From: Nocardia vinacea
GTDB lineage: Bacteria > Actinomycetota > Actinomycetes > Mycobacteriales > Mycobacteriaceae
Length of the DNA stretch: 64,000 nt
Direction: 5' to 3'
Assembly (NCBI RefSeq): GCF_035920345.1
Contig: NZ_CP109149.1
Coordinates: forward strand, 8,866,001-8,930,000
The translations under genes were made by a program, and so were the position numbers. The notes beneath the pieces were generated by a model. It was not told where the DNA came from. It worked only from the letters and a program-made list of their open reading frames with translations, and made no database searches. Numbering within the stretch: position 1 is the first letter of the stretch; each line of letters opens with the position of its first letter. This document shows positions 5,272 through 10,848 of the stretch, piece after piece.

Positions 5272-6112
5272 GTGCCGTGCAACGTCTTTGGGGCTCTTGC
5301 TGTGGTTGATGAAGTGGTGGCCGATGCGTTGTGGGCGAGGCTGGAGCGATTGATTCCGGTTCGGTAGCCGTGATTTCGGTATCCCGGCCGTCGGTGGACC
5401 GGCGACCGCGCGGCGTTGGAAGGCATCCTGTTCGTGGCCCGCACCGGTATCGGCTGGAACCAGCTGCCGACCGGACTGTTCGGAGCCTTCGGCGCGACCT
5501 GCTGGCGGCGGCTGGCCGAATGGCACGAAGCGGGCGTGTGGCAGCGGGCTGCATGAACACAGCTACTGAGCGAACTGCGCGCCGCCGGGCAGCTGGAGCT
5601 GTCGAACGCGCTTGTCGACTCCTCGCAGCTGCGGGCTCTCGAAGGGGGACCACACCGGCCACAGCCCCATCGACCGAGGCAAGCCCGGCTCCAAGCACCA
5701 CCTGATCACCGACGCAGGCGGAACACCCCTTGCCGTCACACTGACCGGAACCGCAACGACGTCACCCAGCTCATCCCGCTGCTGGATGCCCTTGCCCGTC
5801 ATCGGTGGGCGGGTCGGCCGCCCCTGGCGGCGTCCCCGATGGCTCTACGCCGACCGCGGCTACGACCACGACAAATACCGCAGGCTGGTCCGCGCTCGCG
5901 GCATCACATCGGTCATCGCCCGCCGCGGCACCACCCACGGTTCCGGACTCGGCAACGTCGCCTGGCCGGTAGAACGGACCTTCGCGTGGCTGCACGCATT
6001 CAAACGCCTCAGGACCTGCTACGAACGCTGCGCCGACATCCACCACGCCCTACATCTGCCTCGCCTGCTCGGTCATCTGCCTCCGAAAACTCATTCTGAA
6101 CTGAGTTTTTAG
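5272..6112 (+). pseudogene. IS5-family transposase, multiply disrupted
   Basis: Assembled across frames, the product is a standard short IS5-type DDE transposase. It shows ALWARLERLIP, RAALEGILFVARTGIGWNQL, ALVDSSQLRAL, then GKPGSKHHLITDAGGTPLAV, LYADRGYDHDKYRRLVRARG and WPVERTFAWLHAFKRLR. Reading is broken by in-frame TAG at 5365 and TGA at 5371, by indels near 5548-5565 (after VWQR), by a frame change at a G-run near 5641, and by further shifts near 5755-5800. Some IS5 relatives use one programmed frameshift, but two stops plus several shifts show decay. The longest intact stretch runs from about 5612 to the TAG at 6110 and keeps the C-terminal catalytic Glu region. Confidence 0.85.
6090..6104 (-). 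repeat. Right terminal inverted repeat of IS5-like element
   Basis: CTCATTCTGAACTGA, the exact reverse complement of the left repeat. It lies inside the last codons of the transposase frame. Confidence 0.8.
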
Positions 6113-6605
6113 CGCGTTGAAACGCTGGTTTCATCGAGGATGTGCCGCGCGATCCGGACCGGCACACAGCCAGCCGGTTGGTGTCTTGCGTCAGCCTTCT
6201 GGCAGGAACTGGCTGGTCATAAGGTTGATGCCATGAGTCGTGTCTCGCATAGCCGTCTTGTGGGCGGGGTGTGGTAGTTCCGCTTACATCATGTGCAGGC
6301 CGCTCGTACGTCAGGGTTGCGGACTCTGCTGGCCAGGCCGAGGCGATTGCTTGGTTGTCGGGTGGACAGCCCTCGAAGGGCCCCGACGCACCCACTTGAT
6401 GATCTTGTTCTGGCGATCGGCAGTACTGCTTCATTTCCGTACCGCCACCACATCACCGCAGGTAGGATTTTCGCCGGGGGTTCGAGTCTGTGGGGTATTC
6501 GGGGGGTTGGGGGTATCTGCTGCGGGAGGGCACCACGCAGTGGTGCCCTCCCAGCACTTGCAATACACCGTCGTTCTACGAGAACTCGAGAAGAGGGAGG
6601 CTTCC
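6113..6605 (+). other. Non-coding stretch and leader of the NHL-repeat gene
   Basis: About 490 bases with no convincing gene on either strand; the open frame reading into the NHL gene here lacks any recognisable protein character. The last ~60 bases (6543-6605, GGTGCCCT to GGGAGGCTTCC) are a conserved leader with a strong ribosome site, and the same leader recurs inside the gene at 8373-8436. Confidence 0.6.
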
Positions 6606-9600
6606 ATGAGCACAGCAGCTATCGCTACCGGGGCCGTTACCACGGTGGCAGGTACCGGCGCCTTTGGCTACGACGGCGATAACAAGCTCGCCATCTTCGC
6701 TGACCTCGGCAACCCGAGCGGTGTGGCGATGGACGGGGCGGGCAACCTCTACATCGCCGACGACGTCAACCATCGGGTGCGGAGGGTGGATCATGTCACC
6801 GGGCGCATCACCACGGTGGCGGGTACCGGCACCGAGGGCTACAACGGCGACGACCAGCTCGCCGTCAACGCCGACCTCAACTACCCGAGCGGTGTGGCGG
6901 TGGACGGGGCGGGCAACCTCTACATCGCCGATTTCGCCAACGATCGGGTGCGGAGGGTGGATCTTGCCACCGGGCGCATCACCACGGTGGCGGGTACCAG
7001 CCCCGACGGCCTCGCCGACGACGGCCTCGCCATCCACGCCTTACTCCGCGAGCCGCAGGGTGTGGCGGTGGATGGGGCGGGCAATTTCTACATCGCCGAC
7101 TGCGACAACGGTCGGGTGCGGAGGGTGGATCCTGACGGGGTCATCACCACGGTCGCGGGTACCGGCATCTGGGGCTACAACGGCGACAACAAGCCCGCCA
7201 TCGACGCCGAACTGCGCCAGCCGACCGATGTGGCGGTGGACGGGGCGGGCAACCTCTACATCGCCGACACCAATAACAACCGGGTGCGGAGGGTAGATCC
7301 AGCCGGGGTCATCACCACGGTGGCGGGCACCGGCACCGCGGGCTACGACAGCGACAACAAGCCCGCCATCAACGCCGAACTCAACGAGCCGACCGGTGTG
7401 GCGGTGGACGGGGCGGGCAACCTCTACATCGCCGACAACACAAACCAGCGGGTGCGGAGGGTGGATCCTGACGGGGTCATCACCACGGTGGCCGGTACCG
7501 GCACCCAGGGCTACAACGGCGACAACCAGCCCGCCATCGACGCCGAACTCCGCGAGCCGGAGGGTGTGGCGGTGGACGGGGCGGGCAACCTCTACATCGC
7601 CGACAGCAGCAACAATCGAGTGCGGAGGGTGGAGCCTGTCTTCACCGTCGTGCAGGACCCACCGGATCCGGTGGTGATGACCGCAGGGGTGAGCACGCAA
7701 CTGAAGTTCACGCTGTCGGCGAACACTACGGTTCCCGCCGGTCGGAGTATCGTCCTCGGTTTCCCCTCCGGGGTGGGCCTGGCGCCCGGCGGCGTCGTCC
7801 GCTACCACTGCACCGACACCGACACTCCGCTGCCGGTCACGGTCGGCGCCGACGGGTCGGTGAGTGTCACCGCCGAGGAGATCACTGCCTCGACGGGATG
7901 CTTCTACTCCGTAGACGTCTGGGCCCCGGTCTTCATCGAGGATGTGCCCGAGGGCACCATCTCCATCGGCGGCACTACCCAGCCGATCCGTTTCCGCGTT
8001 CAGGAGCCTGTCTTCACCGTCGTTCAGGATGCCCCGGATCCGGTGGTGATGACCGCAGGGGTGACCACGCAGCTGGCATTCTCCGTGTCGGCGAACTGCA
8101 CGGTTCCCACCGGTCAGAAAATCACCCTCGGTTTCCCCGCAGGCGTCGGTCTGGCACCGGGCGGCGTCGTCCGCTACCGCTGCCCGGACACCGGTATCGA
8201 CACCCCACTGCCGGTCACGACCAGCCCCAACGGATCCGTCAGCGTCACCGCGAACGAGATCACCACCTCCACGACGTGCTTCTACTCCGCCGACGTCCAG
8301 GCCCCGGCGATCCCTGGGGGCACCGTCTGCGTCGGCGGCACCACCCAGCCGATCCACTTCAGTGTCGAAGCGGTGCCCTTACAGACACTTGCAACACACC
8401 GTCGTTATACGGAACTCGAGAAGAGGGAGGCTTCCAAGAGCACAGCAGCTATCGCTATCGGGGCCATTACCACGGTGGCAGGTACCGACGCCTCCGGCTA
8501 CAACGGCGACAACCAGCCCGCCATCAACGCCGAACTCAACAGCCCGAGCGGTGTGGCGGTGGACGGGGCGGGCAACCTCTACATCGCCGACACCAATAAC
8601 AACCGGGTGCGGAGGGTGGATCATGCCACCGGGCGCATCACCACGGTGGCGGGAACCGGCACCAACGGCTACAACGGCGATAACCAGCCCGCCATCAACG
8701 CCGGACTCGGCCCGTTCGATGTGGCCGTGGACGGGGCGGGCAACCTCTACATCGCCGACCTCGTAAACCAGCGGGTGCGGAGGGTAGATCCAGCCGGGGT
8801 AATCACCACGGTGGCGGGTACCGGCACCGCGGGTTACAACGGCGACAACCAGCCCGCCATCAACGCCAAACTCAACGAGCCGAACGGTGTGGCGGTGGAC
8901 GGGGCGGGCAACCTCTACATCGCCGACCTCATAAACCAGCGGGTGCGGAGGGTAGATCATGCCACCGGGGTCATCACCACGGTGGCCGGTACCGGCACCC
9001 AGGGCTACAACGGCGACAACCAGCCCGCCATCCACGCCGAACTCTACCTCCCGCGTAATGTGGCGGTAGATGGGGCGGGCAACCTCTACATTGGGGACGA
9101 AGTCAACGATCGGGTGCGGAGAGTGGATCCCGCCGGGGTCATCACCACCGTGGCTGGTTGCGGCACCCAGGGCTACAACGGCGACAACCAGCCCGCCATC
9201 AGCACCATCCTCGACGGCCCGTGTGGTGTGGCGGTGGAGGGGGCGGGCAACCTCTACATCGCCGACCGCGGGGACCAGCGGGCGCGGAGGGTGGATCATG
9301 CCACCGGGCGCATCACCACGGTGGCGGGTACCGGCACCGCGGGCTACAACGGCGACAACCAGCCAGCCATCAACGCCGAACTCAGCTGGCCGCAGAGTGT
9401 GGCGGTGGACGGGATGGGCAACCTCTACATCGTCGACACCGGCAATGCGCGGGTCAGGAAGGTGGAGCATGCCGTGTTCACGGTCGTTCAGGATCCACCG
9501 GATCCGGTGGTGATGACGCCGGGGGTGACCACGCAGCTGAAGTTCACGGTGTCTGCGAACGCCACGATTCCCGCCGGTCAGACGACCATCACGCTCGATT

Positions 9601-9842
9601 TCCCCGCAGGCGTGGGCCTGGCCCCGGGCGGCGTCGTCCGCTACGTCTGCCCGGACACCGGCACCGACACCGAACTGCCCGTCACAGTCGGCCCCGACGG
9701 GTCCGTCAGCGTCACGGCCGAGGAGATCACAGCCTCGACAGCATGCTTCTACACCGCCGACGTCCAGGCCTCGACGATCCCCGAGGGCACCGTCTGCGTC
9801 GGCGGCACTACCCAGCCGACCAACTTCCGCATCAACCTGTAG
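6606..9842 (+). CDS. Double six-bladed NHL beta-propeller protein with Ig-like domains (fused tandem duplicate)
   Basis: 1078 aa from ATG 6606, chosen for the GAGGGAGG ribosome site 5-10 bases upstream; a longer open frame starts at 6240 but is not protein-like. Order: six NHL repeats (6638-7632; each with TTVAGTG, GYNGDNQPAI, GVAVDGAGNLYIAD and NRVRRVD), then two ~120-aa beta-rich Ig-like domains (VFTVVQDPPDPVVM start, GFPxGVGLAPGGVVRY core, GTTQPIxF end). An odd linker follows (8372-8466), then six more NHL repeats and one further Ig-like domain. Each Ig-like domain keeps one Cys after GGVVRY and one in CFY, suggesting a disulfide, yet no signal peptide or membrane segment is visible. NHL propellers are usually binding or scaffold modules; no enzymatic motif is seen. 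Function unknown. Confidence 0.9.
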   Translation: MSTAAIATGAVTTVAGTGAFGYDGDNKLAIFADLGNPSGVAMDGAGNLYIADDVNHRVRRVDHVTGRITTVAGTGTEGYNGDDQLAVNADLNYPSGVAVDGAGNLYIADFANDRVRRVDLATGRITTVAGTSPDGLADDGLAIHALLREPQGVAVDGAGNFYIADCDNGRVRRVDPDGVITTVAGTGIWGYNGDNKPAIDAELRQPTDVAVDGAGNLYIADTNNNRVRRVDPAGVITTVAGTGTAGYDSDNKPAINAELNEPTGVAVDGAGNLYIADNTNQRVRRVDPDGVITTVAGTGTQGYNGDNQPAIDAELREPEGVAVDGAGNLYIADSSNNRVRRVEPVFTVVQDPPDPVVMTAGVSTQLKFTLSANTTVPAGRSIVLGFPSGVGLAPGGVVRYHCTDTDTPLPVTVGADGSVSVTAEEITASTGCFYSVDVWAPVFIEDVPEGTISIGGTTQPIRFRVQEPVFTVVQDAPDPVVMTAGVTTQLAFSVSANCTVPTGQKITLGFPAGVGLAPGGVVRYRCPDTGIDTPLPVTTSPNGSVSVTANEITTSTTCFYSADVQAPAIPGGTVCVGGTTQPIHFSVEAVPLQTLATHRRYTELEKREASKSTAAIAIGAITTVAGTDASGYNGDNQPAINAELNSPSGVAVDGAGNLYIADTNNNRVRRVDHATGRITTVAGTGTNGYNGDNQPAINAGLGPFDVAVDGAGNLYIADLVNQRVRRVDPAGVITTVAGTGTAGYNGDNQPAINAKLNEPNGVAVDGAGNLYIADLINQRVRRVDHATGVITTVAGTGTQGYNGDNQPAIHAELYLPRNVAVDGAGNLYIGDEVNDRVRRVDPAGVITTVAGCGTQGYNGDNQPAISTILDGPCGVAVEGAGNLYIADRGDQRARRVDHATGRITTVAGTGTAGYNGDNQPAINAELSWPQSVAVDGMGNLYIVDTGNARVRKVEHAVFTVVQDPPDPVVMTPGVTTQLKFTVSANATIPAGQTTITLDFPAGVGLAPGGVVRYVCPDTGTDTELPVTVGPDGSVSVTAEEITASTACFYTADVQASTIPEGTVCVGGTTQPTNFRINL
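8372..8478 (+). repeat. Fossil 5' leader and lost start codon embedded in the NHL coding sequence
   Basis: This segment repeats the gene's own upstream leader at 6543-6655 almost base for base: GGTGCCCT, CACTTGCAA, ACACCGTCGTT, AACTCGAGAAGAGGGAGGC, TTCCA, then GCACAGCAGCTATCGCTA. The authentic start ATG of the first copy corresponds here to AAG (Lys). So the second half was once a separate gene with its own ribosome site, and the two copies have fused in frame. The leader is now translated as the linker containing RRYTELEKREASKSTAAIA. Confidence 0.92.
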
Positions 9843-9960
9843 ACACATCTGGTGTAAGCGGTGCGGGGCGCGGAGGGGAGGATCACGATCATCGGGCCGA
9901 CCCAGCCGGGCAGAGTCCTGAAGACAACGACCAATCCGGCTGCGGGCTGGTGTGACATCG

Positions 9961-9991
9961 AGGGCGGTCGCGTCTATGCCGCGACCGCCCT
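9961..9991 (+). terminator. Hairpin downstream of the NHL gene
   Basis: Perfect 12-bp stem AGGGCGGTCGCG / CGCGACCGCCCT with a 7-base loop, 120 bases after the stop. Only a short T run follows, so it may be an I-shaped actinobacterial terminator. Confidence 0.6.
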
Positions 9992-10848
9992 TCACCCTGA
10001 AGACCTCGCGCCTCATCAATAGCCAGGACCGGCACGGACGGGGACACTCCGAATCCAACCACCTCACCCCGACGGCGGAGTCGACCGCGCCTTGAGGAGC
10101 AAGGACGGCACCCACCGGCGACTGGACGACATCGACGCCCGCCGCAGGATCTGGACGCCCGGCGAGGACGACCCCGCGGCCCGGCTCTTCAACGCCGAGG
10201 CGCTCGACTGACTCGGCTCATCCCGGGATTTCGTGTGGTCAGCGCCGGGTTCGGGCGAGCGGCGCCAGGCATCGGCCCGCGTGACGATTTCCTCAATCGT
10301 CACAAACTCTGATCAGACAGATTGGGTCCTGGATGGCCCTGCGGTCAGCGCGGGACATCCCGTTGCTGTCCATGATCCGGGGCGAAAGGGGGGCCTTCAG
10401 TGGACAACGGATTGGGGCCGCTGCCGGATATCGCGACCGTGATGAGAGTGTTCGTGCGGACCGCAGACCGGGCGTCTCCTGGTGCCGGTCACTTCCATCG
10501 CGTCGAGGTCCGCGATATCGTGCCGCCCACCGGTCGCCTTTCGACCGCGATCAGCGAATCGTCGGGATCTGTCCGGGTGTGCGCGGCGAGTCGCAGAAAC
10601 TTGCGTAGCTGTCTACCAGCAAACCAGACTTATCCAGTTTCAGCGGCACTCGTCCAGGACCAGAGATTGTTGCTAACAAGTGTGTGATTGCTGACGCTGC
10701 TCGAGTTGCTGGCCTGGCTCGGATTCGCGTGCGCCGCTGATGGTTTCGTGTCGTCGTGGGTGCAGCGAATGTCGATTGATGGGGTGATCTGCGCGCCGGT
10801 GCGACACCACGGTCTTAGCGTGTCTCACCGGCGTGTCGATGATTGTTT
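9992..10848. other. Decayed region without an intact gene
   Basis: About 860 bases with no supported gene. One plausible remnant is the C-terminal tail ending at 10211 on the plus strand (frame reading HRRLDDIDARRRIWTPGED, then FNAEALD and stop); it has no start codon after the preceding stop near 10020. A 9-bp hairpin GTGACGATT/AATCGTCAC sits at 10281-10303. Short open frames at 10333-10690 look like chance frames of GC-rich DNA. Confidence 0.45.

Follow-up and report, generated by a model that had tools for sequence, protein, structure and literature searches.

The window, a 64,000-nucleotide stretch of the Nocardia vinacea genome (contig NZ_CP109149.1), contains at 6606–9842 on the forward strand an open reading frame of 1,078 amino acids, running from ATG to TAG and matching the Pfam families TEN_NHL, NHL and DUF7933. 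Its product has the layout NHLx6–D–D–linker–NHLx6–D, where D denotes a DUF7933-like domain. A first array of six NHL units (repeat family D1) occupies 6636–7634 and is followed by D domains at 7638–8000 and 8010–8365, a linker of 33 residues at 8367–8465 that we trace to a former leader and first codons, a second array of six units at 8466–9470 and a terminal D domain at 9474–9839, all on the forward strand. Counting by motif gives 12 units, as the 6 + 6 claimed in the first-pass annotation, and the two halves are not of equal make-up: the first array is followed by a pair of D domains, the second by a single one. Upstream of the ATG at 6606 the reading frame stays open as far as a GTG at 6240, which we do not think is used as a start.

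The product scored 206.6 bits against NHL (PF01436; cut-off 20) and 238.5 bits against TEN_NHL (PF25021; cut-off 27.1), both above the curated cut-off. DUF7933 (PF25564; cut-off 26.5) was matched with 37 bits by the whole protein, in three stretches at E values up to 1, and with 29.9 bits, again above the cut-off, by the two middle D domains alone, in one stretch. The three D domains show a mean column identity of 84% and share two invariant cysteines, yet the complete N-termini in the family have no obvious signal peptide by eye. Relatives of solved structure, found by sequence, include Teneurin-like (E = 2e-98), Pizza7H (2e-27) and PknD (8e-19), the last described as a six-bladed NHL propeller (PMC6805158, in extract). 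Going by their names, none of the best 60 of 67 structure matches is a twin-NHL DUF7933 protein, and a sequence search with the D–D region found no PDB relative (best E 0.35). AlphaFold, run on six sequences, produced a model of moderate confidence (mean pLDDT 68.9, pTM 0.42) in which each NHL unit has about four or five strands and the D domains are all-beta; a separate model of the D domain was poor (pLDDT 59). Linker residues 600–609 are modelled as a helix with very low confidence (block means 27–28).

NHL propellers commonly bind partners, and the doubling of the propeller suggests bivalent binding. The product is most likely a bivalent binding protein, in which two six-bladed NHL propellers would be carried on D-domain stalks.

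Just upstream of the gene, 5331–6112 holds an apparently frameshifted transposase remnant, of which 5612–6112 matches the DDE transposase domain PF01609. The adjoining DNA at 6130–6146 is identical over 17 bases to 7932–7948 in the first D domain and has a gapped D-like extension covering 6127–6195. The extended match is borderline, scoring 48 against a maximum of 45 in 200 shuffles and 71 for the best of 320 other pieces of the window, and one other 17-mer match occurs elsewhere in the window; it is possibly the remnant of a further copy, or chance. On the reverse strand, an open frame of 578 amino acids (8379–10115) lies opposite the second half of the gene and is probably a side effect of GC-rich codon use. 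Outside the window, the same genome has two more NHL-like stretches, L002 and L003, which share 42% and 40% identity with the propellers.

The repeated leader

The sequence at 6536–6640, spanning the leader and first codons of the gene, is repeated at 8366–8470 with ~90% identity in a local alignment bounded at both ends by the supplied stretches, and in a genome-wide search the similarity extends to 6660/8490 at 90%. The recurrence of leader and first codons had been noted in the first-pass annotation, which let it start at 6543; the recurrence stands, while the similarity begins at 6536. The non-coding part alone gave an alignment score of 98; when one side was plainly shuffled 300 times, the highest score was 31. 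The leader of copy 1 (6536–6605) is identical to 8366–8435 at 63 of 69 aligned bases (91.3%), and the first 36 coding bases of the two copies agree at 33. Across the full 10.36 Mb of the genome, the leader query matched itself, copy 2 and one weak third place, where the match covers query bases 125–160 only, that is, the NHL-coding end.

Both copies contain the Shine–Dalgarno-like AGGGAGG (6594–6600 and 8424–8430), placed 5 bases ahead of the ATG at 6606–6608 in copy 1 and, as the annotation had recognised, of an AAG at 8436–8438 in copy 2. In the latter, the former Shine–Dalgarno is read as AGG GAG G, giving Arg–Glu and the first base of Ala within the residues KREA, and the putative fossil start codon is read as Lys; the helix modelled at residues 600–609 contains the residues encoded by the old Shine–Dalgarno. 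Two single-base indels distinguish the leaders: an A at 8385 is present only in copy 2 and an A at 6581 only in copy 1. They cancel in frame, and the frame stays open across the second copy with no stop. The A at 8385 is sited where the D-domain frame comes into register with the second array. A relative in another genome of the genus, G082, is without both bases, and the insertion at 8385 is thus copy-2-specific in the three-way comparison.

Upstream of copy 1, 6524–6552 on the forward strand is predicted to form a hairpin with a 13-bp stem and a 3-base loop (RNA fold z = -4.67 for 6515–6612). The linker segment 8345–8442 has no such stem (z = 0.02): copy 2 retains the right arm only, now coding within VPLQT, and the fusion join therefore falls between the hairpin arms. 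We place the join at 8366, the first base similar to the leader, within the D-domain code ending in HFSV. The hairpin of G082 has an 11-bp stem (z = -3.08), in which the G–C pair 6525/6551 is replaced by U–A and the A–U pair 6535/6541 is lost. A promoter and terminator scan gave no site.

Aligned at the DNA level, as the annotation had proposed, the arrays of the two halves are 82% identical, compared with 91% for the leaders. The blades within the gene are 73.9–91.7% identical to each other, and the positional counterpart is the best match among the 11 other units for only one of the six copy-1 units, the first. The blades have apparently been reshuffled; the missing blade-by-blade correspondence is expected if blades exchange, and it is mainly the leader that records the duplication. 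The fusion by tandem duplication described in the annotation is supported, but its description as clean does not, as only the first blade keeps its positional best match. The leaders being more alike than the arrays, despite an old-looking fusion, a later exchange between the leader copies is also possible.

Relatives with and without the join

A protein search with the whole product considered the best 120 of 7,997 matches, and a second protein search the best 120 of 7,980, such that more Nocardia members may exist. A search with the D–D–linker region, made among the 7,993 candidates of ~410–1,304 amino acids sharing most words, matched 10 proteins, and half of these carry the join and linker: the window product and four other Nocardia proteins. 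The protein of Nocardia sp. CA-135398 (P0002) has the layout NHL6–D3–linker–NHL6–D with 6 + 6 NHL motifs; that of N. amikacinitolerans (P0007) likewise has 6 + 6, with six past the linker, and an apparently frameshifted C-terminus. The N. gamkensis protein (P0008) is N-terminally partial, with 3 + 6 motifs, and the partial protein of Nocardia sp. NPDC023852 (P0240) also spans the join. The linker is 33 residues long in all five, with lysine at the fossil start in each (known from protein only in the other four) and 22 of 33 columns invariant. Between species, pairwise identity is 70–97% in the linker, 79–97% in the preceding D domain and 72–86% in the next two blades, suggesting that the linker is about as conserved as the folded parts of the protein. 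The remaining matched proteins, one from Nocardia sp. NPDC004750 (P0091) and four from Streptomyces, lack the linker; among the 10, it was thus seen in join-spanning proteins only and in no distant single-gene homologue, the finding that the annotation had named as refuting its reading.

Single-propeller versions, for which the annotation had suggested a search, are represented by the Streptomyces proteins P0242 and P0243, each with one NHL array, two D domains (by eye) and no linker. By eye they have 5 and 4 NHL units; a script searching for the motif in its Nocardia form finds 3 and 2. Both start with MTTPAIAQGTITTVAGTG (MTTPAIA), which aligns ungapped with KSTAPIAFGLITTVAGTG of the linker and puts M exactly at the fossil-start site. 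Three other Nocardia proteins (P0002, P0007 and P0091) start with MSTAAIAIEAITTVAGTG; all these starts follow the source annotation. Given M at this site in the single-array Streptomyces proteins and three Nocardia starts, a start codon there is probably ancestral and the AAG derived.

Genome, family and protein searches found no unfused tandem pair of the kind the annotation had proposed to look for, among 150 genomes of the genus and 401 of the family. Such a pair is an expected intermediate and no requirement, as one join can fuse two copies directly. With the two middle D domains as query, D domains were found in 2 of the 150 genus genomes, the window's own and G082. The leader query matched in five genus genomes, three of them by 26–28 bases only, and in four family genomes, two of them by short NHL-end matches only. 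At E 1e-30, with five candidates scored per genome, the full protein found its own gene, that of G082 and an NHL gene of genome G002. The Streptomyces D domains matched only the window's own among 394 genomes of the class, and none among 392 genomes presumed to be Streptomyces, a search with no positive control. A contig scan gave five distant loci. Among plasmids, a DNA search matched nine records (the best covering 59%) and a protein search with P0242 matched 35 (none covering 80%), the best places listed omitting the start in both cases; in phages the leader was unmatched.

G082 holds a single gene with one terminal-type D domain and a broken NHL frame. Its upstream sequence resembles that of copy 1 from window position 6486 on and then continues in the manner of copy 2, with AAG and FGL. 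At the sites differing between the window copies, before 6576 G082 agrees with copy 2 at three base sites and with copy 1 at two and in a missing A; from 6576 to 6729, 15 sites agree with copy 2, 2 with copy 1 and 3 with neither. The downstream flank 10040–10087 is also common to G082 (L015 2957–2910, reverse strand; 48 bases, 85%); counting the shared upstream sequence, the two genomes thus agree in flanking DNA on either side of the gene.

We consider it highly probable that an ancestral single-array gene was duplicated in tandem and fused in frame, its second leader becoming a linker. That a non-coding leader turned into coding sequence by duplication and fusion was the reading of the first-pass annotation, and it is supported by the five join-spanning proteins with the linker and K and the two single-array relatives with M and no linker. 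An alternative polarity takes the leader to have been coding from the outset, with a protein start further upstream (M-HRRY-ELDKREDSK in G082), an ancestral AAG and a later origin of the ATG of copy 1. It draws on G082 itself: a single gene with AAG and an open frame MHRRYPELDKREDSKNTAAIA in the same frame as the linker, and with several leader sites where it agrees with copy 2 against copy 1. We find it unlikely. The reading frame of G082 is broken downstream, and the FGL that follows its IA is of the copy-2 type, found in all three copy-2 linkers of its clade (CA-135398, N. amikacinitolerans and N. gamkensis), whereas the three complete starts of that clade (CA-135398, N. amikacinitolerans and NPDC004750) all have IEA. 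Moreover, five other proteins, three from Nocardia and two from Streptomyces, have their annotated M start precisely at this site, and copy 1 has a Shine–Dalgarno and a hairpin there.

If the fusion is real and the halves are also made separately by internal initiation, the preservation of AGGGAGG 5 bases ahead of the former start would be accounted for; AAG is, however, not a normal start codon, and 8420–8470 contains no ATG, GTG or TTG in any frame, which makes this very improbable. Repeats also invite misassembly, and a yeast fusion of the same geometry, in which the stop is lost and the join falls within the leader of the downstream gene, keeping the frame of that gene's start, turned out to be an assembly error (PMC4494051, in extract). 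The Nocardia join differs in being found in five separate records: the window lies within a one-contig 10.36-Mb genome, and the identical join and linker appear in four other separately named Nocardia records. An error of sequencing or assembly can hardly be credited here.

Probable fusion history and possible reversal

Under the tandem fusion that we favour, the ancestral gene would have had a leader with hairpin and Shine–Dalgarno, followed by one NHL array and at least one D domain. Following tandem duplication, a single join from about two codons before the first stop, as judged by the terminal D domain, to a point inside the second leader would have deleted the stop together with the left arm of the hairpin and brought both copies into one frame. 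The second leader would then have become the 33-residue linker, with the Shine–Dalgarno turned into the Arg–Glu of KREA, and the start codon would have changed to AAG, which should abolish internal initiation. We infer the order of these steps, the loss of internal initiation and the outcome of a single product, one protein of ~110 kDa with two six-bladed propellers.

The event appears to be older than N. vinacea. In a midpoint-rooted tree of D domains (16 rows), the last middle D domains of the five join-spanning proteins form one clade (98/93), which splits into the window and NPDC023852 (91/89) versus the other three (98/95). Among the terminal D domains the window is basal (80/83), with N. 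gamkensis, G082, CA-135398 and NPDC004750 grouped at 97/94; deeper branches are weak (78/83). These groupings suggest that the fusion probably predates the split of the window lineage from that of N. amikacinitolerans, N. gamkensis and CA-135398.

Two relatives may have undone the fusion by recombination between its repeats. Because its D domain groups in the tree with the terminal ones of N. gamkensis and CA-135398 and its FGL has the copy-2 form, G082 is best read as the product of an excision between the two leaders, with an AAG derived from copy 2 and DNA sites that are mixed. For the same reasons we set aside G082 as a pre-fusion gene, though its DNA sites are mixed; the copy-2-like sites could be ancestral states lost from copy 1 of the window. 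The protein of NPDC004750 has nine NHL units and one D domain. Its units 1–6 score best with copy-1 units of the relatives and units 7–9 with those of copy 2, although for several the margin is small and the positional order is not always kept, a pattern consistent with a crossover between the arrays. A bolder proposal, which we offer tentatively and hold to be somewhat doubtful, is that a leader with one hairpin arm and a Shine–Dalgarno became in one step a selected linker of fixed length, its start silenced against internal translation, and that the leader copies serve as an excision site by which the gene may switch between twin and single forms over evolution.

Re-amplified beta-propellers (PMC9218822 and PMC6805158, in extract) likewise have near-identical blades, changing blade numbers and disrupted genes, and the first of these extracts describes a disrupted WD40 propeller with at least 12 blades. 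There, as far as described, the amplified unit is the blade, whereas here it is a whole propeller-plus-stalk gene and a leader has become a linker. Among the papers listed by word searches of the open-access literature, none has a title or opening of its abstract that deals with this gene or with a start codon and ribosome site preserved as fossils within a linker. The fusion of adjacent genes is already known, being given as the predominant prokaryotic route to domain gain (PMC2926785, in extract), and the Nocardia case is unusually legible. In our judgement the joins of fusions are seldom readable, whereas here one gene preserves both the regulatory leader and the copy of it that is translated, and related species keep or apparently undo the fusion. 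The conversion of non-coding to coding sequence can thus be dated in this family, and the constraint on it measured.
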